This document shows, in pieces, positions 1,730 to 57,635 of a stretch of 64,000 nucleotides of DNA. This DNA comes from an uncultured bacterium. GTDB lineage: Bacteria > Hydrogenedentota > Hydrogenedentia > Hydrogenedentales > CAILVY01. Under the pieces are notes generated by a model. It made no database searches. It was not told the origin of the DNA and saw nothing but the letters and a program-made list of their open reading frames with translations. The translations under genes were made by a program, and so were the position numbers. Where the stretch lies: contig CALEDJ010000034.1 in assembly GCA_937951485.1 (NCBI GenBank), positions 115,243-179,242 of the forward strand, given 5' to 3'. Every line of letters begins with the position of its first letter. Position 1 is the first letter of the stretch.

Positions 1730-1733
1730 GTTC

Positions 1734-30623: not shown

Positions 30624-33600
30624 TCAGGACTTTCCGGTTTCACAGACAACCCGGAAACCAACATCATGCATGGCCTGGGAGGCATCGTAATGCAGACGGA
30701 AGGCGGAGCGGGCCCGCTTGGGAATGTCGAGCCAGGACCCGCCGCGGACGACTTTGCGCCTGCCGGCCGCGGCGTGTGGCGCGCAGAATTCGGTGTTTCC
30801 GGGATAGGGGCCGTAATCCGAGAGCGTCCATTCGGCCACATTGCCGTGCATGTCATGCAGCCCCCAGGGATTCGGTGTAAAGACGCCGCCGGGCGCAGCA
30901 ACGCGCCATCCGTCGTCGAAACGGGTGTCGGCGGGCCGCCACGGCGGATGCACGTCGGGTACGTGGGGATAGTAAACGCTGTGATGCGTCGCATCGGACA
31001 AGTTGGCGGAGCGGCTGAAATCGCAATCGAGCGTGCCATGCCAAAAAGCAGTGGTCGTACCGGCACGGCAGGCGTATTCCCATTGCGCTTCGGTGGGAAG
31101 GGTGAACCGCAAACCTGTTTTTCCGGACAGCCACGCGCAGAAGGCCATCGCCTGGTCCCAGGAAACCCGAACCACCGGCTGTTCGGGGCGGTTCAGCGGG
31201 AAGCCGCGCTCGTCATCGCCGAACTGATAGGCTTCCCCCGTTTCAAGGCCGCTATCGTGCGTCGGGTCGAAGCACTGATACTGTCGGTTGGTCACCTCGT
31301 AGCGCCCGATCCAGAAGCCGGTTTCAATGGTCTGCACATGGGCCGGACGTTCATTGGGATATCCCTGGTCCGAACCCATGATAAAGGAACCTGGCCGGAT
31401 ATGGACCAGATCGATGAAAATCCCAGCGGCAATCTCGATGGCGATGGTGTCCTCATTATGATCGCCGGACGTTTCAATCCTGGCGGTCGCATCGCCCTCG
31501 ACAAAGGTCGGGAATGCGGTGATTTCGGGAACCGGCGCGCGTTCGAGGGCGGCTGCGGGATGGATCGCATCGGGGTCTTCGTCAATGCCGGCGTAGCGAT
31601 GATGCAAGACGCGACGGCGCTCATTGCCGCGCCGGGCCGCGGCCAGTTTTGCGGGGATTGCGGCCACCACCTCCTGCCAGGTCCCGTGAAACGGCGCGTT
31701 GAGGTCAATCCAGGTAATCAGGCGGTCCCACGCCTCTGTACTCAGTGAAACGCCATGGTGGCCATCCCTCAGAATTTGAATCAGGCGGCTGTTATCGGCA
31801 TGGAAATCACGCGGCGGCAACAGGTGCGCATCGCTTTCCAGCGTGGGCGTATGCACCCAACGGCGCAGTTCCATATACGACGGCGAAAAGTGCATCTGGA
31901 ACGCGGAGGGAATCCGATCAGTGGGCCGTGCCGTCAGGTCGGAGGCGGTTTTACCGCCCGCCAGCGGTCCGCCGTGATGGCATCCGACGCAATACGCATC
32001 CAGCACGGGCTGGACTTCGCGTTCGAAGGAGAAGCCGCGTGCCGGGCCATACCACGATGCAATCGGAGAGGGTTCGCGCCGGAAGGCCATTGGAGTGGTG
32101 TCAAAGGGGGCGGTGGTGTTCTGCTTTTCGTGGCAACCGACGCAGGAGCGTTTTTCTCCGGGGGCGGCGGTCATCCAACTGCGCATAAGCGCCAGCGCCT
32201 TGCCGTCGGCATCGAGGGGCTGAAGCGAGATTGGCGTGCATGCGGGCACACGGAAATGGGCCGACCCGTCCGGTTCTACTGGCACCGTGCCAATGATGCG
32301 CTTCACATCCCAGGGGCCATCCAAACCGACGCGATCGGGTTCCGCGCCGAGGCCGTGGAAGGTGTAGGTGTATCCCACGAGCCGCAATGCTTTGACCATG
32401 CCGCGCGGCACGCCCGCCAATCCCGGACCGCGATAGACATCCGCCATCAGGACCGTCGCCTCGATTTGGGACGGGTCGGCCACATCGGGAATGACGGGCT
32501 GTCGCGGGGTTGTGCGCCAGGGCGTCGGCTCGAAGAACGCCCAGCCGGGTTCTTCGTGAATCAGGACGAAGTTGTCGAAAACATCCACGAGATAGATGCC
32601 CCAGAGACCCGTTTTCACCGGCTTGCAGGAGACCAGGAAATGTTTTTCGCTCAGGGGGAAGGGATGCAGGAATCGCGGCCAACTGGCGCAGATGAGGCCA
32701 TCAAGAATCACCGGTTTTACTGGTTCACCATGGCCGGGGATACGCTGCACTACGCCATCGGCTTCCTGTCGGCCCAAGGCCGGATCAAAGATCACCAATT
32801 CGCCCTGTCTCGGGGGGTCGTGGTGGCCGCCGACAATTGCCACCACCTTCGTGGGATGATTCGGGATGGGGCGGGCGTAGAACATGGCCGTGGGCCAGAA
32901 CGAGTTGCTGCCATAGTATTCCGTCTGGCGGCTGCCATCGGGGTTCATGCTGAACAGCAGCCGCGTGAAGGCGTGGGCAATGTCGGCATATTCCCAGCGC
33001 TGGTACAGAACGCGCCCATCATTGAGCACGGTCGGACACCAGTTGTGGTCCTGATCGTTCGTGAGGCGCCGGATGCCTTGATCACGGTCAAGAAGATAGA
33101 GATTCGCCACTTTGGATGTACCGCCGACGCAGGGCACGCCGATAAAGGGGGCTGTTGACGTGAAAATGATCCGGTCGTCGGGCAGATAGCAGGCGTCGTA
33201 GTTGTGCACGTCGGGCTCATCAATCAAGGGCAGGCGATGAAGAGTACCGGATGTCAAATCCAATTCGGCGACACCCCAGCGGCCTTCCGTGTCCGGCATG
33301 GAGAACAGGAGTTTCTCGGCATCGTAGTGCAGGTCAAGATCGCCGATGAACTGGTCGTCCGGCGGGCGGAAAAGGGTTTCGGTTCGGCCGCCCGGTCGCA
33401 CTGGTGACAGCATTTCCAGTGTATTTTCATAGCCGGTCGGAGGGAGGTCGTCGTTGCCGTGATAATTCATGGGAAGACCGAGGCGATCGGCGCGCCGTCG
33501 AATCATCAACAGCCGGTCGAAATCCAGGAGCGGATTCGCCAGCAGCGCGTCGCGTTGCAGCGCGTCGAATCGCGCAACAAGTGGAGCGTGCGCATCGGCC

Positions 33601-34589
33601 CCGGCGTCGCGCGGCAGACGATCGTGTTCGGCGCGCAACGCGTCGAGTTGCGCCAGATACTCCACCCCCTGCGCGTACTCGTCCGGAAAATTCCGCATCA
33701 AATCCTCGATCGCCAGGCGCAGCGCGCGCCAGCGCGGCGCGGCAATGCCCGGTTCATCGGGATGGGCCAATGCCGGAAACTTCGAACGCATCACCACCGG
33801 TTGCCACGACTCGGGCGTGGCCAGATATTTCAGGATATTGGCGGTGATTGCAAGCAGATTGGCGCGGTGCGGGTTGTTGCGGTCGGCATAGTCGGGCCAG
33901 CGCCAGCCGAACAGAATGATTCGTCCCGCGCCAACCGCGTATTCCACAAGCGGCCGTTGAACGCCATCGGGCGTGTTCCCCAGCACCATCCCCTCGCCGG
34001 GACCGCCCCAATAGAAGTCGGCCACTGCACGGCAGCCGCCGTTGCTCAGCCAGATGAGGCCGTCATCACCGGGGACAAGGCCGGCAAACACAGGATGCGT
34101 TTTCTCGACCGCTGCCATCGCCGCAGGATCGCGGTAATGGTCCAGTTCCCGCCGCTGCGCCCGCACATCGGGTTCCAATCCCAGGGAATCAATGATGGCC
34201 AGAGCGCCGCCCGACAACAGAACCCCGCCGCCGTCCGTGGCGAAGCGCCGCAGCGCGGCGAGATGCGGCCCGCCATAAAGCCTTGTACGCGCGATGGCGT
34301 CGCCCTGGTGATGCCAGACCACGTCGAAATCGGCGATATTCCGCGCCCCACCGGCAACATCTGCAAATCCGCCCGCGTCGCTTGCGAAAAGCAGCGTCGC
34401 ATCGCCAAGCGCCTGTGCAGAATCCCAAGCCCCGAGATCATGCGGCCCCATCTCCCCAAATGAACCCTCCGCCGCCACAAAAGCAATACGCAACGGCTGC
34501 GCCTGAACTGCATCCATGCAGGCCAATACGATGCACGCAACAGCGACGACAAGGACACGTTTCAGGGCAACCGATGAATAAGTGCGCAT
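30624..34589 (-). CDS. Amidotransferase-like / HzsA-related diheme / SUMF1 fusion protein
   Basis: This 1,321-residue exported protein has a signal peptide (RVLVVAVACIVLACMDAVQA). Residues about 30-260 resemble a class-I amidotransferase or ThuA-like (DUF4960-type) fold without a clear catalytic Cys. Residues about 330-980 form the core shared with hydrazine-synthase alpha-subunit-like proteins: beta-propeller blades (LLFSMPDTEGRWGV, WCPTVLNDGRVLYQRWEYAD) followed by two CxxCH haem sites, CVGCHEK (816) and CVGCHHG (867). Residues about 1050-1318 form a SUMF1/FGE-like domain ending RGGSWLDIPKRARSAFR. The two cysteines of true FGE are absent. It diverges from a sulfatase gene with 148 bases between them. 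Its function is not established. Confidence 0.75.
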   Translation of the reverse strand: MRTYSSVALKRVLVVAVACIVLACMDAVQAQPLRIAFVAAEGSFGEMGPHDLGAWDSAQALGDATLLFASDAGGFADVAGGARNIADFDVVWHHQGDAIARTRLYGGPHLAALRRFATDGGGVLLSGGALAIIDSLGLEPDVRAQRRELDHYRDPAAMAAVEKTHPVFAGLVPGDDGLIWLSNGGCRAVADFYWGGPGEGMVLGNTPDGVQRPLVEYAVGAGRIILFGWRWPDYADRNNPHRANLLAITANILKYLATPESWQPVVMRSKFPALAHPDEPGIAAPRWRALRLAIEDLMRNFPDEYAQGVEYLAQLDALRAEHDRLPRDAGADAHAPLVARFDALQRDALLANPLLDFDRLLMIRRRADRLGLPMNYHGNDDLPPTGYENTLEMLSPVRPGGRTETLFRPPDDQFIGDLDLHYDAEKLLFSMPDTEGRWGVAELDLTSGTLHRLPLIDEPDVHNYDACYLPDDRIIFTSTAPFIGVPCVGGTSKVANLYLLDRDQGIRRLTNDQDHNWCPTVLNDGRVLYQRWEYADIAHAFTRLLFSMNPDGSRQTEYYGSNSFWPTAMFYARPIPNHPTKVVAIVGGHHDPPRQGELVIFDPALGRQEADGVVQRIPGHGEPVKPVILDGLICASWPRFLHPFPLSEKHFLVSCKPVKTGLWGIYLVDVFDNFVLIHEEPGWAFFEPTPWRTTPRQPVIPDVADPSQIEATVLMADVYRGPGLAGVPRGMVKALRLVGYTYTFHGLGAEPDRVGLDGPWDVKRIIGTVPVEPDGSAHFRVPACTPISLQPLDADGKALALMRSWMTAAPGEKRSCVGCHEKQNTTAPFDTTPMAFRREPSPIASWYGPARGFSFEREVQPVLDAYCVGCHHGGPLAGGKTASDLTARPTDRIPSAFQMHFSPSYMELRRWVHTPTLESDAHLLPPRDFHADNSRLIQILRDGHHGVSLSTEAWDRLITWIDLNAPFHGTWQEVVAAIPAKLAAARRGNERRRVLHHRYAGIDEDPDAIHPAAALERAPVPEITAFPTFVEGDATARIETSGDHNEDTIAIEIAAGIFIDLVHIRPGSFIMGSDQGYPNERPAHVQTIETGFWIGRYEVTNRQYQCFDPTHDSGLETGEAYQFGDDERGFPLNRPEQPVVRVSWDQAMAFCAWLSGKTGLRFTLPTEAQWEYACRAGTTTAFWHGTLDCDFSRSANLSDATHHSVYYPHVPDVHPPWRPADTRFDDGWRVAAPGGVFTPNPWGLHDMHGNVAEWTLSDYGPYPGNTEFCAPHAAAGRRKVVRGGSWLDIPKRARSAFRLHYDASQAMHDVGFRVVCETGKS

Positions 34590-34737
34590 CGCGAATCCTT
34601 TCGCGCAAGACCTGAAAAACAGAATAACGATGGATACCATTGAAAACCATAGGGGCGTTCTGGTTCAATCCCCTTGTCGCCATTGCCGGACAAGACAACG
34701 CGATTTTTCACTTCCGCCGGCGACGGAGGATAATACG

Positions 34738-36551: not shown

Positions 36552-38090
36552 TCACATAACGTAAAGGCTTTCTGTCGAGAAAAGCGCATCACTGGTCAGA
36601 TTGACGCCCAGGGTTCTCAATCCCGCCTCGTCTCCGGGCGTCGGGATATGGGTCATGTGCATGTCGCACCCCTTGAGGTTTTTGAGTTGCTCGATGGCCA
36701 GTTTTGTTGCGCTGTTCAATGGCGTGGAAGCGCCCACGGCGATTAGCGCCTCCTCAAGATCCAGGCTGATACTCTTATCGTCTTTCACGTTCCGCTTCAT
36801 CTCGCCGATGGCCTCCAATATGTGCGGCGAGATCAGATGAATTTTATCCGGGATATCGGCCAGATATTTGATCGCATTCAGCACGACGCTTGTGGCCGCG
36901 TGCATAAGCGGAGAATTGCTCCCGGTGATGATGGCGCCGTCATGCAGTTCGATGGCCGTGCCGCAGTAGACCCCGTTGTGTCCCTTTTTTTTGCGTTCGG
37001 CTTGCTTGGCGGCTTCTCTGGCCGGAGGCACCACCCGGCGGTCTTCCACCTGTATTCCGAGTTCATTCATGAGCAGTTCCACCCGCTCCACCGTTTCCCG
37101 GTCCACAAGGCCCATCATGTATTCACAGCGATAGCGCAAGACCCTGCGGATGACTTCCTGTTTCGCGGCCTCACGAACCAGTTCTTCGTCAACAATCCCG
37201 AAGCCCACCCGATTGACGCCCATATCGGTTGGGGAACGGTAGAAAGATTGCGCACCGGTGATTTTTTCAAAGATGCGCTTCAACAACGGGAACGCCTCCA
37301 CGTCGCGGTTGTAATTGGTGGCGGTCTCGCCATAGGCCTCCAGATGGAAGGGGTCAATCACATTAACATCTTTGAGGTCCGCCGTGGCCGCCTCATACGC
37401 CACGTTTACCGGATGCTTCAAGGGAAGATTCCAGATGGGGAAGGTTTCGAACTTCGCATATCCGGCCCGCACCCCGCGTTCATACTCATGATAGAGTTGG
37501 GAAAGACAGGTTCCCAGTTTGCCGCTGCCGGGGCCTGGCCCCGTCACCACCACCAGCGGCTGGGTCGTCTCGATATAGGTGTTCCTCCCGTACCCTTCCT
37601 TGCTGACGATAAGGTCCACGTCCGTGGGATATCCTCTGGTGGCATGGTGCGTATAGACTCTTATCTTGCGCCGTTCCAGTTTGTTCTTGAAAAGTTGCGC
37701 GGAACACTGATCCTCGTACCGGGTAATGACGACGGCGGTGATTTCCAGTCCCCAGTCACGGCGCAGGTCGTCAATCAATTTCAGCACGTCTATATCGTAG
37801 GTGATGCCGAAATCAGCGCGAACCTTTCTGCGGTCAATATCCCCGGCATGGATGCAAAGAATGACGTCAATCTTGTCTTTGATCTTCTGAAGCAGCCGCA
37901 TTTTCACGTTCGGGTCGAAGTTGGGCAGAACCCGGGACGCATGGTAATCGAAGATCAACTTGCCGCCGAATTCAAGATAGAGTTTGTTATCAAATCGCTC
38001 GATGCGTTCAAGAATTTCACGCGTCTGCTCCTCCAGGTACTTTTCAACATCAAACGCAATTCGATTCCCTGCTTTCATCCGGCCCACCAC
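36552..38090 (-). CDS. DUF1846 (UPF0371) family protein
   Basis: This 512-residue protein is full length for the conserved DUF1846 family (about 500), with [64 protein letters not shown] and [16 protein letters not shown]. Structures of the family suggest a nucleotide-like binding site but no reaction is proven. The first codon is GTG at 38090; an in-frame ATG lies at 38078 and could be the real start. It is a single gene with R2 copies on both sides. Confidence 0.85.
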
Positions 38091-38121
38091 CTTCCCGCCC
38101 GGTTGGAACTATGAAATTCAC

Positions 38122-38320: not shown

Positions 38321-38536
38321 GCCGGGATTCTATATCCCCCTCTCACTGACAATCAACGCTCTTTTATATCCCTGGCGCGGATTGAGGGGCATTTCGCGTA
38401 TTGCGGCGGCATCTGCTACTATGCTGCCCGCTGGGGAGGGCATGCGGCGGGCACATGCGCCTGCGACATCCGATTGCTGTCGCTTCCCGGTCACGACTTA
38501 ACCCGAAACTGGACCATCATAAGGAGCAAGGTGCCC

Positions 38537-39499: not shown

Positions 39500-39525
39500 T
39501 CGAGTCAAAGAGCAACGCCGTCTCC

Positions 39526-43284: not shown

Positions 43285-43521
43285 CCATGGGTTTCGTCAC
43301 CATCCCGCACAAAATGCGCCGGCACTGCATGAATGCACGCGGCAATGCATTGCATTCAGCAGCGCTCGTGTGGTCACGTCATGTCGCACTGCCCATCCCC
43401 GTCATACGCATTTGCTCGCATGGTTTTGTGAAATATTCTCTGGACTCGGCAAGTGGGCATTTTGTTTTTCATTTCGAAAAATGCCATTGTAGCGTTGGTG
43501 TCAAAGAAAGGGAATTTCAAT

Positions 43522-44463: not shown

Positions 44464-44531
44464 TCGCTCGTGGCCATGGCGCCGTTTTGCGACTGGGGGA
44501 TGTGTCATCATAATCTGGAAATGGAGGAAGA

Positions 44532-46058: not shown

Positions 46059-46135
46059 TATGTGCCGCCCAGATTGACCGGGGTTGTCCATCTTGTGCAG
46101 CATGGCGCAGTGGATAGAAAAAGGGAGACGGGGTT

Positions 46136-47416
46136 ATGTTCAGCACAAGCCGTCGTGATTTCCTGGGTGTTTCAGGCATGGGACTGATTGCGGGGCTGGC
46201 CGGCGCAAAGGGATGGGCGGCTGCGCCGCCCAGCGAGCGCGTGCGCCACGCGGTCATCGGAACGGGTGGTCAAGGAAAACGCCACGCCCAAGTGTTCTCC
46301 GGCTTTGAGGATTGCCAGGTCGTTGCGTTGTGCGATGTGGACCCGGAACGCAGAAACAGCATTGCACAGCGCCTGGAAAGAAGGAGCCGGGTCGCGGTGC
46401 ACGAGGACTACCGCCGCATTCTCGACGACCCGGATGTTGACTGTGTCAGCATCGCAACGCCTGATCACTGGCATGCGCCCATCGCTCTGGCGGCCCTTCA
46501 AGCCGGAAAGCATGTGTATGTGGAAAAGCCGTGCGCGCACAACATTCATGAGGCGATGCTTCTTGCAAAGGCATCGGCGGCCTCCGGCAAATGCATACAG
46601 CACGGCACGCAGGGTCGCAGCGGCGCGGCGCTCCAGGCGGCGGTGATCTTTTTACGCGAAGGCGGTCTGGGAAAAGTACGCATGGCGAAGGCCATCAATC
46701 ATCAGCACAGGAAACCGATCGGGCGCGCGCCGGTAAGCGAACCGCCGGAAGGTGTCAATTATGACCTGTGGCTGGGTCCCGCCCCGGAGCATCCCTTCAC
46801 CCGGAACCGCTGGCACTATAACTGGCACTGGTTCTGGGACTACGGTTGCGGCGACATCGGCAATGACGGCATCCACCAGATCGATCAGGCGCGCTGGGGG
46901 CTGGGCGTGGGCCTGCCCAAATCGGTCGTCGCGCTGGGCGGCCAGTTGTATTACGATGACGACCACGAAACGCCGGACACGCAAACCGTGCTCTATGAAT
47001 ACGACGATTGTCACCTCATGTACGAGATGCGGCTGTGGACAGACTACCCCCTTGAAGGCCTTGACAACGGCGTGATCTTCTATGGAGACAAAGGCGTCTT
47101 GGAATTTGGCCGGAACGGCTGCGTTGCCAAGTTCATCGGTGGCGAAGAGAAACACTTTGGACCGTATGCGGACATAGGAGATCACGTGCGGAATTTTCTC
47201 GATTGCGTGAAGTCCGGCGCGCCCTCAGACCTGTATGCCCCGATAGACGAGGGGACCGTGTCAACAATCCTGTGCCACCTCGGCAATATCGCAACACGGG
47301 TGGGCCGCACACTGACCATTGATCCTGAAACGGGGCAATGCCTCGGCGATAAAGAGGCGACAGCGTTGTATTCCCGAACCTATCGGAAAGGATATGAACT
47401 CCCGGCTGTACTCTGA
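46136..47416 (+). CDS. Tat-exported Gfo/Idh/MocA-family oxidoreductase
   Basis: This 426-residue protein has a Tat signal (STSRRDFLGVSGMG), the nucleotide fold GTGGQGKRHAQVFSG, VDCVSIATPDHWHAPIALAA, and the EKP motif in YVEKPCAHN. The long insertion (about 195-250) with WLGPAPEHPFTRNRWHYNW is typical of the PVC-type bacterial Gfo/Idh proteins. GGGAG is 9 bases before the ATG. It follows the symporter in the same direction, so it probably acts on the imported compound outside or in the periplasm. Confidence 0.9.
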   Translation: MFSTSRRDFLGVSGMGLIAGLAGAKGWAAAPPSERVRHAVIGTGGQGKRHAQVFSGFEDCQVVALCDVDPERRNSIAQRLERRSRVAVHEDYRRILDDPDVDCVSIATPDHWHAPIALAALQAGKHVYVEKPCAHNIHEAMLLAKASAASGKCIQHGTQGRSGAALQAAVIFLREGGLGKVRMAKAINHQHRKPIGRAPVSEPPEGVNYDLWLGPAPEHPFTRNRWHYNWHWFWDYGCGDIGNDGIHQIDQARWGLGVGLPKSVVALGGQLYYDDDHETPDTQTVLYEYDDCHLMYEMRLWTDYPLEGLDNGVIFYGDKGVLEFGRNGCVAKFIGGEEKHFGPYADIGDHVRNFLDCVKSGAPSDLYAPIDEGTVSTILCHLGNIATRVGRTLTIDPETGQCLGDKEATALYSRTYRKGYELPAVL

Positions 47417-47499
47417 TGCAAGGCGACTTTTCCTGTCCAACAGACGTGTGGAAGGACTGGCAATACGGTAGCACTCTGAAACAAGCGCTTAACGATGGG

Positions 47500-47612
47500 A
47501 GCCGTCATTGCGTGCGAAGCGGCGCACAGCGCCGACGAGCATAGCAATCTGAGGCGCACGGCATAGCCGGATTGCCGCGCTACGCTACGCTTCGCTGCCA
47601 AGCATGTTACGA
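47500..47612. repeat. R2 element, copy d (partial)
   Basis: This has the R2-like body CGTCATTGCGTGCGAAGCGG ... AGCAATCTGAGGCGCACG ... CGCTACGCTTCGCTGCC in the same orientation as copy c. It lacks both terminal arms. It sits just upstream of the DUF6807 gene, between 47417 and 47623, where no gene is visible. Confidence 0.6.
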
Positions 47613-47623
47613 AGGATTGCAGA

Positions 47624-48604
47624 ATGTCATTAATCTTGATCATTGCGCTAACGTCCCAAGGCCTGTATGCTGCTGTTCCCGAACCGCAATTCACGGTGGA
47701 TTTCAATGTAGGCGGGGGCCGCGTGGAAATTCTGGCGGGTGGCGAACATTTCGCTACGTATGTCTATGCCGACCCGGAAATTCCAAGACCGTATTTTTGC
47801 CGGGTGGCTGCGCCGGGCGGCATCCAGGTTACTCGCAATCATCCACCGCACCCGATTGAAGATGCCAAAAACGATGATCATGCGACATTTCATCCTGGCT
47901 TATGGCTGGCTTTTGGAGACTTGGGCGGCGCGGATTTCTGGCGCAACAAAGCGCGCGTGCGCCATGTGCACTTTGAAGATTCGCCGCAATCCGGTGATGT
48001 CGGGACCTTCACTGTAAAGAACGTCTATGAAACGCCGGAGTCCCCGCCACGAATTATATGCACAGAAACGTGCCGATACATGGTGCTCATCACGCCAACA
48101 GCGCGGTGGATCATTGCCGAATCGCAGTTGCAGGCCGTGGCGTCGGAGGTGGCCTTTGGCGACCAGGAGGAAATGGGCTTCGGGGTGCGCATGGCCACGC
48201 CGCTGACCGTGAAACACGGCAACGGCACCATCATCAACGATCTTGGCGGCCAAAATGAACCGGGTACGTGGGGAAAACAGGCGGATTGGTGCGCGTATTC
48301 CGGAGTGATGGATGGGCGTCGCATCGGCATACTACTGGCCGCCAACCCCGGTAACTTCCGCCGATCCTGGTTTCACAATCGCGATTACGGGCTTATGGTC
48401 GCCAACCCTTTTGGCAAAAAATCCATGACTGCGCCGCGTGACAGAACAGTACTGCCCGATTCCACGCCATTGCCGTTGGGTAACGTGTTTTCGTTGGGTT
48501 TTGGGGTGTGCGTGTTTGCGGAAGAGGGGGAACAACATCCCGACTACGGGGCGCTGTATGATCGCTACATCAACTTGCTCATTGACCCGAATCCGAAACA
48601 ATGA
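47624..48604 (+). CDS. DUF6807 (PmoA-like) exported protein
   Basis: This 326-residue protein starts with a signal (LILIIALTSQGLYA). The beta-sandwich-like body has LAGGEHFATYVYADPEIPRP, HPPHPIEDAKNDDHATFHPG, WLAFGDLGGADFW and NAPPNP-like loops, matching the DUF6807/methane-oxygenase PmoA family seen in planctomycete-like genomes. The name refers to a domain family and no oxygenase activity is shown. GAAGGATT precedes the ATG. It continues the co-directional catabolic run. Confidence 0.82.
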   Translation: MSLILIIALTSQGLYAAVPEPQFTVDFNVGGGRVEILAGGEHFATYVYADPEIPRPYFCRVAAPGGIQVTRNHPPHPIEDAKNDDHATFHPGLWLAFGDLGGADFWRNKARVRHVHFEDSPQSGDVGTFTVKNVYETPESPPRIICTETCRYMVLITPTARWIIAESQLQAVASEVAFGDQEEMGFGVRMATPLTVKHGNGTIINDLGGQNEPGTWGKQADWCAYSGVMDGRRIGILLAANPGNFRRSWFHNRDYGLMVANPFGKKSMTAPRDRTVLPDSTPLPLGNVFSLGFGVCVFAEEGEQHPDYGALYDRYINLLIDPNPKQ

Positions 48605-48611
48605 AGCACAT

Positions 48612-48810
48612 GACGTTTCAGCCAACTGAAGCGATCACAGAACACAACTTCCTCATTGCGGGCGTAACGAAGCGTAGCGCGGCAATCTGGATACACAGTG
48701 CGCCTCCAGTGCTTCGCTCAGCGGCGCTGTGCGCCGCGCCGCCCGCGATGACGAAAAGAAAACTGTGCGTGTTGTTGATTCCAAAGATTTCGCCAGTCGG
48801 CTAAAATGTT
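48612..48810. repeat. R2 element, copy e (199 bp, intact, reversed)
   Basis: The arms GACGTTTCAGCCAACTG (48612-48628) and CAGTCGGCTAAAATGTT (48794-48810) pair at 13 of 17. Its reverse complement aligns end to end with copy c. It starts 7 bases after the DUF6807 stop and its right end borders the ribosome-binding site of the next gene. Confidence 0.82.
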
Positions 48811-48826
48811 ACTGGAGCACAAGTTT

Positions 48827-49687
48827 ATGAACATTGGCATCATTGGACTTGGATTGGTAGGCAATGCGATCGCCCGCAGATTGCTCGCAGCGGGACACGT
48901 AATCCTTGGCTACGATATCGCCGCATCGGCGCGTGACAACGCGGCGACTGTCGGCGTGCGCGTGCAGCCGGATGCCGCCTTGGTCGCCGCCTCGGCGGGA
49001 ATCCTGTTTCTTTGCATGATGGACTCAAATGATCGGCGCGCGTTGCTGTGGGGCGAAACGCGATTGGCGGAAACACTGTCTCAGGGGGCGGTGCTGTTGG
49101 ATGTATCCACGGCGCGCCCCGAAGACATTGTCGCCGACAGTGTGCGGCTTGCCGCGCAGGGGGTGCGGCTGGTGGACGTATGTTTGTCCGGTTCCAGCGA
49201 GGTAATCGCCCGAGGAGAAGCCCTGGCCCTGGTCGGTGATCGGGAGGAAAACGCCGCTTATCGCGAACTGCTGAATCTTTTTACAAAGCGCCAGTATTTC
49301 TTCGGCGCGCCGGGCGCGGGCAACCGCATGAAACTTATCGTCAACATGGTGTTTGGCCTTAACCGGCTTGTGCTGGCCGAGGCATTCGGGCTGGCCGCCA
49401 AGGCGGACTTTGACCTGAACACCGTCCTCGACGTGCTCAAGTCCGGAGAAACCTATTCCGCGTGCATGGACACCAAAGGCCCGAAAATGATCGCCGGCGC
49501 TTACGAGCCGCCGGTGGCGCGGCTGTCGCAACATTTCAAAGATGTTGAACTGATTCTTGAATTGGCGCAATCGCTGGGCGCGCGCGTCCCTGTGTCGGAG
49601 GTGCATGCGCGGCTGCTCCGCGAACTGGTGGATGCCGGCGCCGGCAACCTTGACAACGCGGCCATATTCAAGGCGTACCTGTCATAA
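48827..49687 (+). CDS. NAD-binding beta-hydroxyacid dehydrogenase-like protein
   Basis: This 286-residue protein starts with a Rossmann motif (GIIGLGLVGNAIARRL) and has the 3-hydroxyisobutyrate/6-phosphogluconate-type fold: SGSSEVIARGEALALVGD and the catalytic Lys region GNRMKLIVNMVFG. Members oxidise beta-hydroxy acids such as tartronate semialdehyde, glyoxylate or hydroxyisobutyrate. GGAG lies 10 bases before the ATG at 48827; R2 copy e ends just upstream, so the element has become part of the leader. Confidence 0.85.
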   Translation: MNIGIIGLGLVGNAIARRLLAAGHVILGYDIAASARDNAATVGVRVQPDAALVAASAGILFLCMMDSNDRRALLWGETRLAETLSQGAVLLDVSTARPEDIVADSVRLAAQGVRLVDVCLSGSSEVIARGEALALVGDREENAAYRELLNLFTKRQYFFGAPGAGNRMKLIVNMVFGLNRLVLAEAFGLAAKADFDLNTVLDVLKSGETYSACMDTKGPKMIAGAYEPPVARLSQHFKDVELILELAQSLGARVPVSEVHARLLRELVDAGAGNLDNAAIFKAYLS

Positions 49688-49702
49688 AACGGAGATGTCC
49701 GA

Positions 49703-50278
49703 ATGGAAAAAGTGCTGCTGGTAATCGGCGATGGTGCGGAGGTGATTGACACGATGGTCCCCTACTATCGTCTTGGAGAAGACTTCCAAGTGGTCGTTGC
49801 CGCGCCGGAGAAACGAAGATACCACCTGGTTCAGCATGAACATGCCCCGGACTGGGACATCACAGTCGAAATGCCCGGCTACACCTTCCATTCGGATATC
49901 GCCTTTCGTGACGTCAACCCCGATGAATATATCGGGCTTGTCCTGCCGGGCGGACGCGCGCCGGAATTCCTGCGATACGACCCTGATCTCATTCGGATAG
50001 TGAAGCGCTTTTTCGAGATGCAGAAGCCAGTGGCTTCAATTTGCCACGGTGTGGAGATATTGGCGGCAGCGGATATTATTCGCGGCCGCGAGGTGACCAC
50101 CATTCCCCGGTGCAGGTTTGACGTCGAGGTCGTGGGCGCCAAATACCTCGACCAGCCACTGGTAATTTCCGGCAATCTTTTCTGCTGCCGGTTCAAGCGT
50201 GAATGCTCCGCATGGATGAAGGCTTTTGTAGAAGCGCTGCACCAGGGCGCCAAGGAATCGTCCCGGGCGAATTCATAA
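49703..50278 (+). CDS. DJ-1/PfpI-family protein
   Basis: This 191-residue protein has a flavodoxin-like fold with the nucleophile elbow ASICHGVE (C114-H115), typical of DJ-1/PfpI intracellular proteases, chaperones or glyoxalases. LVLPGGRAPEFLRYD (79-93) and VISGNLFCC follow. The activity cannot be told apart by sequence alone. The start ATG at 49703 has GGAG upstream and lies 15 bases after the previous stop, so the genes are cotranscribed. Confidence 0.87.
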   Translation: MEKVLLVIGDGAEVIDTMVPYYRLGEDFQVVVAAPEKRRYHLVQHEHAPDWDITVEMPGYTFHSDIAFRDVNPDEYIGLVLPGGRAPEFLRYDPDLIRIVKRFFEMQKPVASICHGVEILAAADIIRGREVTTIPRCRFDVEVVGAKYLDQPLVISGNLFCCRFKRECSAWMKAFVEALHQGAKESSRANS

Positions 50279-50329
50279 TTGCGGTGGATTTCCTGTACAG
50301 TAACGCACATCTTCACAGGAGTTGACGGA

Positions 50330-53300
50330 TTGTTCGGTTTATCGTGCCTGATAATCGCGCTCAGTTGCGGTTCAATGGCGGAGCCGGGACAGAACAACGC
50401 CGCTGCGGAAGCGAAGCAGGCGTTGCGGCTTCCCGTCGCCCAGGAGTTTTCTGAAAAACTGGCGCGCATGCCCCATACTGAGACAGCGCAACGGGTTTGT
50501 GTCATCAGATTTCCTGCGCAGCAGGCGCGCTATGTCCGCCTGATGATCCATCAGACCAGCGGCAACACCGAGCCATGTCTGGATGAACTGGAAGTGTACA
50601 ACCCGGATGGCGCGGAGAATCTCGCCCTCGCCCTGCGCGGCGCGACCGCGAACGCCTCTTCGGTAATCGCCGGGTATCCGATCCACGCAGTGCCGCACCT
50701 CAACGACGGCTTGTACGGCAACAACCACAGTTGGATTGCGGCGACATCGGGCAAGGCTTGGGCGCAGATAGAATTGCCCATGGCGGCCACTGTGGACAGG
50801 GTAATCATTTCACGCGATCGCAAAGGCGAATTCCGCGACCGCATCCCGACCAATGTCGAGGTGTTGTTGTCTCTGGACGGGAACGACTGGATATCGGCGG
50901 CCACTGTGGAGCGGACGATAGATACGTTGCGACCCAAGCGGCGCAATCCACTGAGCCAGTATGACCTGATTCCTTACCTGCCGATTGCCCGGTTGACTGA
51001 ACAGAACTGGCAGGGTGTTGTACAGTATGCCTTCCTGCGCGAACGTGAGACGTGGCGGCAAATTCCCACGGATGATCACCTCTCGCCGCTGGTCACGGAG
51101 CGTCCCGCATATCCGGGCGGCCCGCCATATTGGGGACGTATCGCGCGTCTGTCGCCGCTGGACAGGGTCTTCACGCTGTTTGAGGAGATGATAGACCGGC
51201 TTGGCCGGCAAGGTCTGGACGTCAGCGGGGAAAGACAAGAGTTGGCGCGATTTCGGCAGCAGGCCGCCACAGCCGCCGACAAAAACGCCGATGATGCCCT
51301 TTATCTCGCAGCCCGATGGGCGAAGCGGCGACTCTTCTTCCGTGATCCCGCACTGACCCCGCTGGAACGGGTTCTGTTCTCCAAGCGGCACCCCTTCCTT
51401 GAATCGCACAATTACAGCGAGCATCTGGACGGCTATCTCGATCCGGGCGGCGGACTCTATGTGCTCCACATCCCCCGTGACGCGCAGGGACGCCTGCTTC
51501 CTGAACAGGCCGAAATTGAAGAGATTTTCGATGGCAGCGCGGGCATCGTGCGCGACCCCGTGATTGATTACGAAGCGCGGACCGTTTATTTCGCCTATCG
51601 TCCGGAGATTCCGCTGGTCGCGGGATGGGATTCCTACTGGCATCTTCACGCCTTGTCGCTCGACACCGGCGAATGCAAGCGGATCACCGACGGCCCCTTT
51701 CACGACTTCGACGCCGTCGTGTTGCCCGACGGCGGCCTGGCCTTTCATACCACGCGCTGTGCCATTCGATTCCTCTGCTGGCGGCCGCAGGCCTATGTGC
51801 TTTACCGGATGGAACGCGACGGATCGCGCATGCAGCGGCTCTCCTACGCCAACCTCAGCGAGTGGAAGCCGTCGGTGATGAGTGACGGACGCATCCTCTG
51901 GACGCGGTCGGAGTATCAGGATAAGGGGGCGGACTTCGGCCACACGCTCTGGGCCATCCATCCCGACGGCACGCACCCCGAATTGGTCTTCGGCAACAAC
52001 ACGCCGAATTGCTACAGCCAGGCGCACGAGGTGCCGGGCACGAACGAGATTGTCTGCACACTGATGTCGCACGGAGACCACCAAGGGCCGATCGCGCTGA
52101 TTGATCGGAGCAAGGGACCGTTTGATACCAACGCGATCACCAGCATCACACCGGATACGCGCCCGCACTACCAGATGAGCCGGTCGCACTTTGACACATT
52201 CCGCGATCCCCACCCCGTTTCGCGCGACCATTTCCTGGTCAGCCATAATCCCGACAACCACCACAATTGGGGCATCTACGTCATAGACCGCTACGGCAAC
52301 CGCGAATTGCTCTATGTTGACCCGGAAATCAGCAGCAAACGTCCAACGCCGCTGCGCGCGCGGCCGCGCCCGCCTGTGCTGGCGAGCACATTGGACCCGG
52401 CGCTCGCGGAAGAGGGACTGGGCCATTTCACCGTGCAGGATGTCTACGTCGGTCTGGGACCGGACGTCGCTCGCGGACGGGTCAAATACCTGCGCGTTGT
52501 CGAGGAAGTCCCTTCCAATCTGGAGAAACTCGCCTGCGGGGAGTATCGCAATGATCACCCGCCGTTTCAGGATTTCTATGCGTCGCCCATTCACCTCGTG
52601 ACGGGCCCTCCCCAGAGTTATCTCACCCGCACCGACAACGCACCGCAGATGCTCCTGGCGACCCATTACAAATGGAGCGATCTCGTAACGGAAATATCCG
52701 ATGGGCTTTATCGCGTGACCGAGGCGGCAGGCTGGCCGAGTTACGTTGCGAAGATGTCCCACGGCATCGCGCCCGTGGCGGAAGACGGTTCGGCGAGTTT
52801 CCTCGCGCCCGCGGGAAAACAACTTTACTTCCAGGCGCTCGACGCCGAATTCAATGAGATTCAGCGGATGCGAAGCGTGGTTCACTTACAGCCCGGCGAA
52901 CGCCGCAGTTGCATCGGATGCCACGAGCACCGCAAGACCGCACCGCCCGATGCCGGGCCGCCGCTGGCCATGCGACGACCACCCGATCGCCTCGAACCGC
53001 CGCCCTGGGGCGCCGTCCCATTCGCCTACGAAGCAGTGGTTCAGCCCGTCCTGGATCGCCGTTGCGTCAATTGCCATGACGGCAGCCCCAAGGGTGCACG
53101 GCCTGACCTGCGGGGGATTCTTGACAGGGAGCGCATCCCCGCGTCCTATCGTTCGCTGATTACCGGCGGCTGGGTCCACTACTTCGATTTCACCTACGGC
53201 ATGCGCCACTTCAAGGCCGAACCCCTCTCCTTCGGGACGCTCCAGAGCCGCCTATGGAAAATCCTTGGCGACCCGAATCACAAAGACGTTGCGCTCACTG

Positions 53301-53398
53301 AGCATGAGATGCGTGCGGTGAAAACGTGGATTGACCTGAACTGCCCCCTGTGGCCCGACTACACCTACCGGCCAGACCGCCCCGCTTCGGCGAAATGA
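50330..53398 (+). CDS. HzsA-related diheme protein with discoidin-like domain
   Basis: This 1,022-residue exported protein is a homologue of the other two large diheme proteins here. It has a short signal (FGLSCLIIALSCGS). Residues about 50-200 form an F5/8-type-C (discoidin)-like domain, absent in the others. Residues about 300-860 hold the propeller-like region (WKPSVMSDGRILWTRSEYQD, FGNNTPNCYSQAHE). Haem sites are CIGCHEH (861) and CVNCHDG (912), without SUMF1. The start is chosen at a TTG at 50330 because AGGAG lies 8 bases upstream; a TTG at 50279 is in frame. Cotranscription with the catabolic run suggests periplasmic electron transfer or sugar binding. Not proven. Confidence 0.75.
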   Translation: MFGLSCLIIALSCGSMAEPGQNNAAAEAKQALRLPVAQEFSEKLARMPHTETAQRVCVIRFPAQQARYVRLMIHQTSGNTEPCLDELEVYNPDGAENLALALRGATANASSVIAGYPIHAVPHLNDGLYGNNHSWIAATSGKAWAQIELPMAATVDRVIISRDRKGEFRDRIPTNVEVLLSLDGNDWISAATVERTIDTLRPKRRNPLSQYDLIPYLPIARLTEQNWQGVVQYAFLRERETWRQIPTDDHLSPLVTERPAYPGGPPYWGRIARLSPLDRVFTLFEEMIDRLGRQGLDVSGERQELARFRQQAATAADKNADDALYLAARWAKRRLFFRDPALTPLERVLFSKRHPFLESHNYSEHLDGYLDPGGGLYVLHIPRDAQGRLLPEQAEIEEIFDGSAGIVRDPVIDYEARTVYFAYRPEIPLVAGWDSYWHLHALSLDTGECKRITDGPFHDFDAVVLPDGGLAFHTTRCAIRFLCWRPQAYVLYRMERDGSRMQRLSYANLSEWKPSVMSDGRILWTRSEYQDKGADFGHTLWAIHPDGTHPELVFGNNTPNCYSQAHEVPGTNEIVCTLMSHGDHQGPIALIDRSKGPFDTNAITSITPDTRPHYQMSRSHFDTFRDPHPVSRDHFLVSHNPDNHHNWGIYVIDRYGNRELLYVDPEISSKRPTPLRARPRPPVLASTLDPALAEEGLGHFTVQDVYVGLGPDVARGRVKYLRVVEEVPSNLEKLACGEYRNDHPPFQDFYASPIHLVTGPPQSYLTRTDNAPQMLLATHYKWSDLVTEISDGLYRVTEAAGWPSYVAKMSHGIAPVAEDGSASFLAPAGKQLYFQALDAEFNEIQRMRSVVHLQPGERRSCIGCHEHRKTAPPDAGPPLAMRRPPDRLEPPPWGAVPFAYEAVVQPVLDRRCVNCHDGSPKGARPDLRGILDRERIPASYRSLITGGWVHYFDFTYGMRHFKAEPLSFGTLQSRLWKILGDPNHKDVALTEHEMRAVKTWIDLNCPLWPDYTYRPDRPASAK

Positions 53399-53504
53399 CA
53401 GCAGGCCGCAGAAAATCACGGCGTACATGCCCCACGATGCGAAAAGCGTTTTCCCCTGGCCATATGATCCAATGAATATTGGCGTTTGTAATGGGGGGTG
53501 TCTG

Positions 53505-53975: not shown

Positions 53976-54306
53976 GGAAAAAGCGCCGCTGTATGGCATT
54001 CATGAGTCCTGCGAATTGATTGTATAGTTCGCCGCCGAAAAGGATTTTCCGGATGATGTCGCGGACGCGAAGTGTCGTTCAGCAGTTGAGCGCCGATTTA
54101 TCACTGTGGGGGAAACCCTTAAGCGTTTGGGGAGATTCACCTCTGAATTGCTGAATCGCATTCCGGAGAGCCGTGACATAATCAACTTCCGAAATATCCG
54201 GGTGCATGGATACGACCGTGTGGAAGACGAGGTTGCAGGGGGCATCGTGCAAAAGCAAACGCCTGTCTTGAGTAATCTGGCGATGCGTCTGTTGGCGGAA
54301 TTCTGA
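53965..54306 (+). pseudogene. hepT toxin relic with amber stop
   Basis: From the ATG at 53965 the frame encodes MRLEEKAPLYGIHESCELIV, a TAG at 54025-54027, then FAAEKDFPDDVADAKCRSAV, a GETLKRLGRF segment, and RNIRVHGYD, ending at 54304-54306. The last motif is the R-x4-H-x-Y of HepT (DUF86). The family usually has a glutamate at the TAG position (LIVEF), so one GAG-to-TAG change explains the stop. The 113-codon frame is otherwise intact. Its neighbour, the nucleotidyltransferase, carries R4. Confidence 0.85.
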
Positions 54307-54419
54307 CTTGAGTGCCGGATTTCTATATTGAACTGATCGGAGGCATGAAGCACCGCTCATTGGCTGTTGTTTTGATCCATGCGCACAGACGAATGACATC
54401 ACCGGCGATGTATCCCGGA

Positions 54420-57400
54420 TTATTCCGCCGCGTTGTCATCGTCTGCGGCGCACATGACCCGGAAGCCAACACTGTACACCCGTTGCCAGGGTGCATAGCG
54501 CAAGCGGAAGGCGCTGCGGGCGCGCGCAGGCCGGTCATACCACGAGCCGCCCCGAACCACCCTGTCCTCTTTCAGCGCGGGATCATTGCGCCCGTCGTCG
54601 TCGCGCCAGGGATAGGCGCGGTATACGCTGCGGGTCCACTCGGCGGCGTTGCCGTGCATGTCGAATAAGCCCCAGTGGTTTGGGGCGTAACTGCCGACGG
54701 GCGCGCTGACGCGGTGTCCGTCATTCACGGCGGTGATTGCAGGACGCCAGGGCGGTATCGCGCCGGACGGTAGTTTCCAGGGTTCAAAAGTGTCTATATG
54801 GGCCAGGGAGTAATCGGCCAGATTGGCGCGGGCGGCAAAGTCATCGGTGATACATCCGTATTCCATCGGCGTGGTCGAATCGGCGCGGCATGCATATTCC
54901 CAGTGGGCTTCATCGGGCAGGGTAAACGCCTCGCCGGTCTGCGCGCTCAGCCACGCGCAGAAGGCCATGGCGTCATACCATGACACCCGCACCACGGGCT
55001 GCGCGGGTTCGTTGAGCGGATATCCGCGCTCCTCGACGCTGAACTGCAGGAAATCGCCGCCTTCGAGACGGCTGTCGTGCACGGGGTCAAAACGCGCGTA
55101 TTGATCGTTGGTCACTTCCGTAACGCCCATCCAGAACGGGCGGTCAATCGCAACCCGCGTCACCGGCCTCTCGTTGGGTTCGCCGTCGTCCGCCCCCATG
55201 TCAAACACGCCGGCGGGAATCCGGGCCAGTTCCAGCGTGACTCCCCCGCCGAGGTCCACCGTGCGTCTGGCACCGGCAGGGCGTCGTTGCTTCGGTTCGG
55301 GGGGAATGACGTTTTCTTTCGGCTTCTCAATTTTGGCCTCTTTTTGCACCGGGGGAATATCCTGCAACGGTGTCAGATCAAAAATGACTTCCGGGTCCTG
55401 GTCGGCCGTATTCGGCGCGTAGCGCCGCGCCATCTCAAGGCGGCGGTCCCGCTGATGCGCGACCTTCTCCATCCCGACAATTTCATGCCAGGTGCCGTGC
55501 GCGGGGGTATGGAGGTCTATCCAAGTGATAATCCGGTCCCATGATTCGGCGTCAAGCAAGACCCCGTGGTGGCCGTCGCGCAGGCGCTGCACCAGTTCCG
55601 TCGTGCTTGCGTGAAAATCCAGCGGGGTGAGCAGGTGCATGTCGCTTTCAATGGTCGGCCCGCGTACATAGCGGCGCAAGGCGAGGTAGGACGGCGGGAA
55701 GTGCGAACCGCTGGTGTATGCCGGATCATTGGCGACGGGATGCACGTCGGGCAGGTCGCGAAAGTCGGGGATCGCCGCATCCGCACCGTCGTGGCAGTCC
55801 ACGCAATAATGGTCGAGGACCGGCTGCACCTCGCGGCGGAAGGAGAATCCGCGTTCGGGTCCATGCCACGGCGTTATCTCAGACGGCGCGCGGCCGGCGG
55901 CCATCGCCGGTCTTCCCGGCGGCGACATGCTCTGCTTTTCGTGGCAACCCACGCATGACAACCGCTCGCCGGGCATGGCCGTCATCCAACTGCGCATCAG
56001 TTGCAGCGCCTGGCCTTGCTCGTCCAGCGGCTGTACGGAAATGGGCGTATTCGCCGGCACGCGAAACAACGCGGACCCGTCCGGTTCGACCGGAACCGTT
56101 CCGATGACGCGCTTGATGTCCCACGGTCCGTCCAATCCCACGCGGTACACCTGTCCGCCGACGCCGTGATATGCAAAGTGGTAAGTGAACAGACGCAATT
56201 GTTTCACCGTGCCGCGCGGCACGCCCTTCAGGCCGTCGCCGGCATATATGTCGCTCATATATATCAGCGCATCGTCGCGCGTCAGGTCCACTTTGGGCGG
56301 GACCACCGGCGGTTTCGGTCGGGTGCGCAGTGGAATGGGTTCAAACAGTGCGTACCCGTTGATTTCCTTCAGCAGCGTCATGTTGTCGAACACATCCACG
56401 AGGTACACGCCCCATGGCGATTGCGGCCTGGGTTTGGCCGATACGAGAAAATACTTCTCGCTGAGCGGAAACGGGTGCAGAAACTTCGGCCACGAAGCAT
56501 CCACCAATTCATCACGCAATATCGGGTCCACCGTCTGCCCCCGACCGGGGATGCGCTGCACCACCCCGTTCGTCTCGAAGCGACCCTTGGTCGGGTCGAA
56601 CAACACCAGTTCACCCATGCGCGGGACACCATGGTGCCCGCCGACGATGGCGCAGAACATGGTCGGATGGTTCGGAATTGGGCGCGCGTAGAACATCGCG
56701 TTGGGCCAGTAGGAATTGCTGCCGTAATATTCCGCCTGATTGGTGCCGTCGGGATTCATGGAGAAGAGAATCCGCGACACGAAATGCGGAATGTCCGAGT
56801 ATTCCCAGCGCAAATAGAGCACGCGCCCGTCGTTCAGCACCCTCGGACACCAATTGTGGTCCTGTTCGAAAGTCAGACGCCGGATACGTCCGTTCGACGT
56901 GTCGTAATGATAAATATTCGATACATGCGATGCGCCGGTTACGCACGGCACGCCGACAAAGGGCGCAGTCGAAGCGAACAGGATGTTCCCATCCGGCAGA
57001 TAGCAGGCCTCGTAGTTATCCACGTCAGGTTCGATAATCAGCGACAATTCCCGTACGGTTCCGTCCGGCAAAAGCATTTCGTGCACCTGCCAGCGGCCGT
57101 TCGTTCCGGGCATGGAAAAAAGAAGCCGGTCCGCGTCGAAATGCAGGTCAATGTCGCCGACAAAGACGTCCTTCTCTGGTCGGTAAAGTGTCGCCAATGT
57201 CCCCTCATTCAGCGGCGACAGGAGACACATTTCATTGTCGAAACCGGATATCGGCAGGGAGGAATTTCCCTCCCAGTTCTGGGGCAAACCAAGATGTTTT
57301 TCGGACCGTTTGATGACGATCAGGGCATCGAAATCCATCAGCGGATTCGCCAGCAGTGCAGTACGCGCCAGGGCTTCCCAATGTTTCAATGTCCGAGCGG

Positions 57401-57635
57401 CCCGCGCATCGCCGGCCCGGGCCGCAGACTGCATGGCCGCCGCCTGCTCCCGCGCTTCTTGCAGATCCGTCAGATGCTCCGCACCAATGCGGTATGCCTC
57501 GCCGAATGTGCGCTGGAGGTCTTCCACGGCCAGGCAGACGGCCTCGAAATCCGTAGCGTGAGAAATCTCTGCTCCGATGACAAGTGGTGCGAACGCAATC
57601 CCAAGGAGGAACGCGCAGGTCTTCCGCTCGAACAT
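54420..57635 (-). CDS. HzsA-related diheme / SUMF1 fusion protein
   Basis: This 1,071-residue exported protein (signal KTCAFLLGIAFAPLVIGA) is a paralogue of the 1,321-residue protein without the amidotransferase-like part. Residues about 100-550 form the propeller-like region (RLLFSMPGTNGRWQV, NWCPRVLNDGRVLYLRWEYS). Haem sites are CVGCHEK (561) and CVDCHDG (611). A Lys/Pro/Glu-rich linker (about 745-785) leads to the SUMF1 domain (about 790-1062), which ends RVVRGGSWYDRPARARSAF, so the two FGE cysteines are absent. It is preceded by the aldo/keto reductase with a 12-base gap. Function unknown. Confidence 0.75.
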   Translation of the reverse strand: MFERKTCAFLLGIAFAPLVIGAEISHATDFEAVCLAVEDLQRTFGEAYRIGAEHLTDLQEAREQAAAMQSAARAGDARAARTLKHWEALARTALLANPLMDFDALIVIKRSEKHLGLPQNWEGNSSLPISGFDNEMCLLSPLNEGTLATLYRPEKDVFVGDIDLHFDADRLLFSMPGTNGRWQVHEMLLPDGTVRELSLIIEPDVDNYEACYLPDGNILFASTAPFVGVPCVTGASHVSNIYHYDTSNGRIRRLTFEQDHNWCPRVLNDGRVLYLRWEYSDIPHFVSRILFSMNPDGTNQAEYYGSNSYWPNAMFYARPIPNHPTMFCAIVGGHHGVPRMGELVLFDPTKGRFETNGVVQRIPGRGQTVDPILRDELVDASWPKFLHPFPLSEKYFLVSAKPRPQSPWGVYLVDVFDNMTLLKEINGYALFEPIPLRTRPKPPVVPPKVDLTRDDALIYMSDIYAGDGLKGVPRGTVKQLRLFTYHFAYHGVGGQVYRVGLDGPWDIKRVIGTVPVEPDGSALFRVPANTPISVQPLDEQGQALQLMRSWMTAMPGERLSCVGCHEKQSMSPPGRPAMAAGRAPSEITPWHGPERGFSFRREVQPVLDHYCVDCHDGADAAIPDFRDLPDVHPVANDPAYTSGSHFPPSYLALRRYVRGPTIESDMHLLTPLDFHASTTELVQRLRDGHHGVLLDAESWDRIITWIDLHTPAHGTWHEIVGMEKVAHQRDRRLEMARRYAPNTADQDPEVIFDLTPLQDIPPVQKEAKIEKPKENVIPPEPKQRRPAGARRTVDLGGGVTLELARIPAGVFDMGADDGEPNERPVTRVAIDRPFWMGVTEVTNDQYARFDPVHDSRLEGGDFLQFSVEERGYPLNEPAQPVVRVSWYDAMAFCAWLSAQTGEAFTLPDEAHWEYACRADSTTPMEYGCITDDFAARANLADYSLAHIDTFEPWKLPSGAIPPWRPAITAVNDGHRVSAPVGSYAPNHWGLFDMHGNAAEWTRSVYRAYPWRDDDGRNDPALKEDRVVRGGSWYDRPARARSAFRLRYAPWQRVYSVGFRVMCAADDDNAAE

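Follow-up and report, generated by a model that had tools for sequence, protein, structure and literature searches.

The closest described relatives of the proteins considered here are HzsA, the alpha subunit of the hydrazine synthase of anammox bacteria (Kuenenia stuttgartiensis, PDB 5c2v), in which Tyr591 serves as the proximal ligand of haem I, zinc is bound by Cys303 together with the CxxCH histidine, and haem II has His772 on its distal side (PMC12607021, PMC12758564), and the HzsA and HzsBC homologues from outside anammox bacteria, grouped in clades I to IV, for which Hagglund et al. (2025) reject a hydrazine-synthase role (PMC12758564). A similar Phycisphaerae locus was once taken as possible anammox, and a broad family with other substrates was already proposed in the same work (PMC10732223). 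We analyzed a stretch of 64,000 nucleotides (the window), part of contig C34 of a 4.5 Mb Hydrogenedentota genome, which encodes three large HzsA-like diheme proteins (P0001 to P0003, hereafter proteins 1 to 3). The three are homologues of HzsA along the whole core, beyond a resemblance of fold, and we tentatively read them as alpha subunits with a role in sugar oxidation.

The genes had been placed at 30624, 50330, and 54420 by a sequence-only reading of the window, and their open reading frames (ORFs) are real; gene calls were mechanical, and the genomes of this study are incomplete metagenome-assembled genomes. All three products match the Pfam family HZS_alpha (PF18582), whose gathering cut-off is 26.6 bits. 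Their features are:

30624-34640, minus strand: HzsA-like diheme protein 1 (ORF of 1338 aa)
33798-34499, minus strand: amidotransferase-like N-domain of protein 1 (residues ~48-281; DUF4960 matched weakly, at E 7.9e-5, short of its cut-off)
32127-32402, minus strand: HZS_alpha middle domain of protein 1 (residues 747-838; E 1.4e-29, 102.9 bits)
32130-32144, minus strand: first CxxCH of protein 1 (CVGCH, residue 833)
31977-31991, minus strand: second CxxCH of protein 1 (CVGCH, residue 884)
30645-31412, minus strand: SUMF1/FGE-like domain of protein 1 (residues 1077-1332; PF03781 E 4.5e-47)
50279-53398, plus strand: ORF of HzsA-like diheme protein 2 (TTG starts, likely start 50330)
50648-50911, plus strand: F5/8 type C (discoidin, galactose-binding-like) domain of protein 2 (residues 124-211; PF00754 E 3.5e-7)
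52652-52927, plus strand: HZS_alpha middle domain of protein 2 (E 2.8e-19, 69.9 bits)
52910-52924, plus strand: first CxxCH of protein 2 (CIGCH, residue 878)
53063-53077, plus strand: second CxxCH of protein 2 (CVNCH, residue 929)
54420-57635, minus strand: HzsA-like diheme protein 3 (ORF of 1071 aa)
55938-56213, minus strand: HZS_alpha middle domain of protein 3 (residues 475-566; E 2.1e-32, 112 bits)
55941-55955, minus strand: first CxxCH of protein 3 (CVGCHE..., residue 561)
55791-55805, minus strand: second CxxCH of protein 3 (CVDCH, residue 611)
54456-55226, minus strand: SUMF1/FGE-like domain of protein 3 (residues 804-1060; PF03781 E 9e-46)

The ORF of protein 2 is open from the TTG at 50279, and the TTG at 50330, with AGGAG ahead of it (50318-50322), appears the likelier start. 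Each product begins with a hydrophobic segment, consistent with export. In protein 1, a signal peptide is followed by the amidotransferase-like N-domain, a beta-propeller, the HZS_alpha domain, the diheme region, and the SUMF1-like C-domain; protein 2 runs from the F5/8C-like N-domain through propeller, HZS_alpha, and diheme region and has no SUMF1 domain, and protein 3 carries the SUMF1-like C-domain as its sole addition to the same core. The added domains named in the sequence-only reading were therefore recovered in proteins 1 and 3 (SUMF1) and 2 (discoidin-like), while the amidotransferase-like N-terminus of protein 1 stays a weak match. The spacing of about 50 residues between the two CxxCH motifs, also claimed there, measures 51, 51, and 50 residues in proteins 1, 2, and 3. 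In a motif survey of 141 family members, 137 keep at least two CxxCH and 136 have the first pair 49-54 residues apart, and because the spacing is kept across the family, the paired motifs lie far beyond chance.

The similarity to HzsA had been thought to be confined to the fold family, which underestimates it. Against the PDB, the family profile finds HzsA (5c2v_A) at E 4.4e-42, in an alignment that spans the propeller, middle, and C-terminal haem regions, followed by TolB propellers at 3e-8. When PDB structures are ranked by Z, HzsA comes first both for the AlphaFold2 model of protein 3 (mean pLDDT 89.9, pTM 0.89), with Z 31.4 and rmsd 2.9 over 560 residues in the stretch 101-723, and for the weaker model of protein 2 (pLDDT 69.9 overall, mostly >85 in the propeller), with Z 34.0 over 523 residues, compared to Z 27.8 for propeller-only matches. 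Like HzsA, the window proteins have a propeller, the HZS_alpha middle domain, and a C-terminal c-haem domain in the same order, with two CxxCH motifs; unlike it, they belong to a family with many paralogues and carry the added SUMF1, F5/8C, and amidotransferase-like domains.

The haem-site residues set the family apart from HzsA. The Tyr591 position (His+4 after CxxCH) is Tyr in only 1 of 140 family members, being mostly Asn, Ser, or Gln, and in the window proteins it falls on N, a K/T region, and S, so that none of the three has Tyr. The YGNC loop of HzsA, which contains Cys303, aligns with a conserved, Cys-free YGSN/YGNN loop; Scalinduaceae are also reported to lack Cys303 (PMC12758564). The family has a histidine, His689 of protein 3 (conserved in 98-100%), within one residue of the aligned His772 position. 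C231, R276, Y279, D281, D519, D538, and M547 (protein 3 numbering) are invariant in both the SUMF1 and the non-SUMF1 branches, and an R-W-E-Y-x-D stretch of the family has no counterpart at the aligned place in HzsA. H334 and H335 are invariant too; with C231 and Y279 they raised the thought of a Cys-Tyr-His copper site like that of galactose oxidase, which we do not claim. Since Tyr591 and Cys303 are not conserved, other residues are invariant, and this stretch is missing from HzsA, the family likely has a conserved site that differs from that of HzsA. As judged from the loss of the haem ligand Tyr591 and the zinc ligand Cys303, the three window proteins are very probably not hydrazine synthase alpha subunits, in agreement with the sequence-only reading, which had not implied hydrazine synthesis. 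Their NCBIfam hydrazine_alpha scores are 29.8, 43.2, and 36.8 bits, against a cut-off of 800 bits.

To place these genes, we surveyed 68 Hydrogenedentota genomes, 14 control genomes, and 24 genomes of other lineages, the last chosen for already carrying an HZS_alpha gene. HZS_alpha genes occur in 46 of the 68 Hydrogenedentota genomes, with up to 21 copies each (nine in the genome of the window), in none of the controls, and in 3-87 copies per genome in the selected carriers. The closest relatives found with protein 3 are mostly from Candidatus Hydrogenedentota, and relatives that share at least 46% identity and the full SUMF1 architecture are known from Planctomycetota, Verrucomicrobiota, Lentisphaerae, Kiritimatiellae, Armatimonadota, and Acidobacteria. 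Genomes with many alphas tend, if anything, to have fewer haem-copper oxidase genes (partial r -0.43 after allowing for genome size, p 2e-4, over the 68 genomes with kinship ignored and bd oxidases uncounted); as alpha-rich genomes often have no such oxidase, the system can do without O2 respiration through these enzymes. Among the survey's side observations are the extreme expansions to 87 HZS_alpha genes in a Kiritimatiellia genome (G081, locus L101) and 67 in a Verrucomicrobia genome (G087, L035), a single 1805-aa ORF with four CxxCH and apparently two HzsA-like cores in tandem, possibly an assembly artefact (L091:6782-12199), and six HzsA-like genes on a 21 kb contig labelled Gammaproteobacteria (L056:326-19504), from a genome in which no HzsBC-like gene was found.

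When the neighbors of the alpha genes were clustered, one gene stood out, present in 16 loci and typically less than 100 bp from an alpha. Its product, a propeller joined to a diheme region, matches the fused beta-gamma subunit of hydrazine synthase. The sequence-only reading had noted no HzsB/HzsC partner, which holds for the window and not for the genome, where a single fused HzsBC-like gene lies on contig C35 alongside two further HzsA-like genes (L102:1729-3594; NF052342 hydrazine_BC 3.1e-51, 5c2v_B 2.6e-30, 5c2v_C 5.6e-28). This product also matches the CCP_MauG and MbnH/MauG-like families; its hydrazine_BC score of 174 bits is below the cut-off of 1250 bits, and the partner alignment contains no conserved Cys corresponding to gammaCys165. 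The partner was found in 40 of the 68 genomes, one gene each except in three with partial matches on two contigs (counted as two), and in 23 of the 24 alpha-carrying genomes of other lineages, with one to six matches each. Both genes are present in 38 of the 68 genomes, the alpha alone in 8, the partner alone in 2, and neither in 20 (Fisher p 6e-9, genomes being treated as independent), and the association persists inside families f2, f7, and f11. No more than 4 kb separates the partner from an alpha in at least 21 of the 40 genomes that carry it. The adjoining alphas are spread over several branches of the tree of 136 alphas, and one is a sister of protein 2 (L089), which, together with the many-alpha/few-partner copy numbers, suggests several alphas per partner.

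The C35 locus is also the strongest functional clue, pointing toward ketose or small-sugar catabolism. Its genes all lie on one strand (positions in locus L102):

12197-13198, same strand: DhaK
11248-11955, same strand: DhaL
10371-11264, same strand: LsrF-type aldolase
9674-10345, same strand: cupin exported by the twin-arginine translocation pathway, D-lyxose/D-mannose isomerase family (assigned by the L124 orthologue, which matches PDB 7nzo at 3.4e-16)
6253-9657, same strand: SUMF1-bearing alpha (HzsA/SUMF1)
3623-6232, same strand: alpha (HzsA-like)
1729-3594, same strand: HzsBC-like fusion

Eight loci (L032, L034, L076, L102, L122, L124, L125, and L126) combine the HzsBC-like gene with all four sugar genes, and in an Akkermansiaceae contig (L078) the sugar genes accompany a SUMF1-alpha with no partner nearby.

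Compared to the described systems, the window family is the same as that of Hagglund et al., whose homologues likewise do not conserve Tyr591 and Cys303 and have alpha and fused beta-gamma genes co-located, although the distal His region, absent in their clade I, is kept here (PMC12758564). The sequence-only reading had called these genes the window's best candidate for an undescribed system, but earlier work already describes HZS_alpha proteins from non-anammox bacteria along with HzsBC-like genes located beside them (PMC12758564, PMC10732223). The SUMF1 and other fusions, the up to 87 alphas against one or few partners, and the DhaK-DhaL-aldolase-cupin operon do not appear in the available part of PMC12758564, and no description of the many-to-one copy pattern, the domain fusions, or the operon was found in the literature searched, whose coverage excludes preprints and subscription papers. 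The PSCyt1-3 cytochromes of bacteria of the Planctomycetes-Verrucomicrobia-Chlamydiae (PVC) group, with a proposed action on carbohydrates, are similarly present in many copies and fused to binding domains, including F5/8C, but have another domain set, adjoin sulfatases, which HzsA-like genes do not consistently do, and were abundant in oxic layers (He et al. 2017, PMC5615132), whereas a haem-copper oxidase is often missing from genomes rich in HzsA-like genes.

The fold of the formylglycine-generating enzyme (FGE) is present in the added SUMF1-like domains of proteins 1 and 3 (PF03781 at 1e-45 or better), but the FGE copper cysteine pair (human C336/C341) is replaced (GGSWYDRPARARS), with no Cys conserved there in 59 sequences, and in protein 1 the FGE-type catalytic cysteines are missing at the RGGSW motif. 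The nearest structures to the SUMF1-like domain of protein 3 are PvdO (Z 30.7) and TvpA (Z 30.0), with human FGE at Z ~25; the fold is shared with PvdO, GldK/PorK, and TvpA (Z 26-31). With the copper cysteines absent, these domains are nearer to FGE-like proteins that do not generate formylglycine, and binding modules seem their best interpretation. In the tree, the alphas that bear SUMF1 group in a single branch (support 0.98), and the fusion therefore looks like a single ancient event.

Taking these results together, we regard it as possible, at somewhat less than even chances, that the window genes encode exported two-haem alpha subunits of a wider hydrazine synthase-like family that do not make hydrazine and serve sugar-derived substrates. 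The alphas would be catalytic or substrate-selecting subunits, acting as periplasmic haem oxidoreductases, in which haem I may take the histidine of its own CxxCH as ligand and form an active site facing the propeller, while haem II, with bis-His ligation, may hand electrons on. The added domains (SUMF1-like, F5/8C, and amidotransferase-like) would be non-catalytic binding modules and would choose different substrates, and the HzsBC-like diheme protein could be the common redox partner of several alphas. Sugars or sugar-derived carbonyl compounds are the presumed substrates because the alpha-alpha-betagamma locus stands in one same-strand set with dihydroxyacetone kinase (DhaK, DhaL), the LsrF-type aldolase, and the exported, lyxose-isomerase-like cupin, and because protein 3 travels with an aldo/keto reductase. 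A role in extracytoplasmic sugar breakdown, as the sequence-only reading had suggested, is in our judgment plausible. A more detailed scheme, which we put forward as speculative, would be a widespread two-part sugar-oxidizing system of many alphas with their own binding domains and one HzsBC-like partner, in which small sugars or ketoses would be oxidized in the periplasm and the products phosphorylated by DhaKL and split by the LsrF-type aldolase, anammox hydrazine synthase being a repurposed member.

Several points weigh against the proposed role. We know of no activity for any homologue. The sugar operon sits at the C35 locus and not beside the window genes, which are scattered, and the use of the C35 partner in trans by the window alphas is deduced from copy numbers. 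The closest relatives, G001 and G002, both have a partner gene that is not beside an HZS_alpha gene; the eight alpha-carrying genomes have no detected partner, some possibly from incompleteness; and the co-occurrence test counts genomes as independent, though its signal holds within the three families. Protein 1 orthologues have no constant neighbor in eight other loci, save in two related pairs (L135/L140 and L132/L134), and the SUMF1-like domain could do something other than binding.

The catabolic neighbors of the three genes named in the sequence-only reading (sulfatase, Gfo/Idh, DUF6807, lyase, and symporter) exist; they are listed here with other nearby genes:

57648-58646, minus strand: aldo/keto reductase (PF00248 5e-68), 12 bp upstream of protein 3 on the same strand
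43453-50278, plus strand: same-strand run preceding protein 2 (lyase, symporter, Gfo/Idh, DUF6807, 3-hydroxyisobutyrate-dehydrogenase-like, DJ-1/PfpI)
43453, plus strand: dihydrodipicolinate synthase-type lyase
44532, plus strand: sodium:solute symporter family (SSF) symporter
46136, plus strand: Gfo/Idh in the protein 2 run
60336: second Gfo/Idh
47624, plus strand: DUF6807
34582: sulfatase, adjoining protein 1
36552-38090, minus strand: DUF1846 protein (NF010184, 747 bits)

Neighbors were compared between loci by tblastn, which finds genes lying under antisense ORFs (aldo/keto reductase, cupin, and aldolase). A conserved neighborhood in relatives was found for protein 3 and for neither protein 1 nor protein 2: an aldo/keto reductase of 62-83% identity lies directly upstream of the protein 3 orthologue or a near relative in nine other loci. 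Protein 1 has orthologues of 60-73% identity in seven loci of relatives. Those of protein 2 lie in L111 (71% identity) and, as a partial gene, in L108 (78% identity), and the run at 43453-50278 is not repeated beside them (L107/L108 and L111); an alpha-L-fucosidase with F5/8C follows the one in L108. In L049 and L090, as in the window, genes of the protein 2 type have SUMF1-alphas close by. A DUF1846 homologue also occurs in L111, three genes upstream of the protein 2 orthologue. The supposed co-occurrence with sulfatases and DUF6807 failed, both being in 68 of 68 phylum genomes with or without HzsA-like genes. Sulfatase copy number does not follow HzsA-like copy number overall (rho 0.12, p 0.34), from first-look candidate counts in which at most about 28 sulfatases per genome were scored, and correlates within family f2 only; a DUF6807 link by copy number (rho 0.50 with alphas) was discarded since DUF6807 tracks genome size (rho 0.47).

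Of the other explanations, that of a real hydrazine synthase, or of another nitrogen-cycle enzyme forming or consuming N-N bonds, draws on the homology to HzsA, on the HzsBC-like fusion beside HzsA-like genes in the same genome, and on the precedent of the Phycisphaerae locus. We consider it extremely improbable, as the haem and zinc ligands are not conserved, the family scores are 30-43 bits for the alphas and 174 for the partner against cut-offs of 800 and 1250, the partner lacks a conserved Cys matching gammaCys165, dozens of alpha copies occur in heterotroph genomes, and the published homologues have been denied this role. A part in the degradation of sulfated glycans, with the SUMF1-like domain activating sulfatases, would accord with the sulfatase adjoining protein 1 and with the PSCyt cytochromes that neighbor sulfatases in Verrucomicrobia (PMC5615132), but it is made highly unlikely by the replaced FGE cysteines, by sulfatases being universal in the phylum sample with a copy-number link in f2 only, and by the sulfatase beside protein 1 having relatives of just 26-28% identity in 2 of 8 other loci.

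The partner's matches to CCP_MauG and MbnH/MauG-like families, and the similarity of HzsC itself to diheme peroxidases (PMC12607021), could instead indicate detoxification of peroxide or reactive nitrogen, the partner reducing H2O2 or NO with electrons that the alphas supply from sugars or other donors. Up to 21-87 alpha paralogues with varied added domains would be unusual for such a function, the operon context is sugar catabolism, and alpha-rich genomes often without haem-copper oxidase (partial r -0.43) make oxidant stress no obvious driver, so we find this quite unlikely. The proteins might also be non-catalytic electron carriers or surface redox/adhesion proteins, with haems relaying electrons and added domains anchoring them to glycans or the envelope; they are large and modular, and their SUMF1-like domain is nearest to PvdO, lectin-like TvpA, and PorK. 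Yet C231, R276, Y279, and D281, polar residues that lie beyond the haem motifs and never vary, resemble a conserved active site and haem I of HzsA is catalytic, which leaves this explanation unlikely as well.

The origin of hydrazine synthase is an open question, and the 2025 study reports distant homologues without function or pathway context. The DhaK-DhaL-aldolase-cupin-alpha-alpha-betagamma locus supplies such a context, together with a short, testable list of substrates, and offers a clue to the ancestry of hydrazine synthase, while the excess of alpha over betagamma copies suggests that subunits are interchangeable. If sugar-derived substrates are indeed those of the window genes and their relatives, an HZS_alpha annotation should not be taken as a sign of nitrogen metabolism, and an exported redox family, large and so far unstudied, would contribute to carbon turnover in PVC bacteria, Armatimonadota, and Hydrogenedentota.

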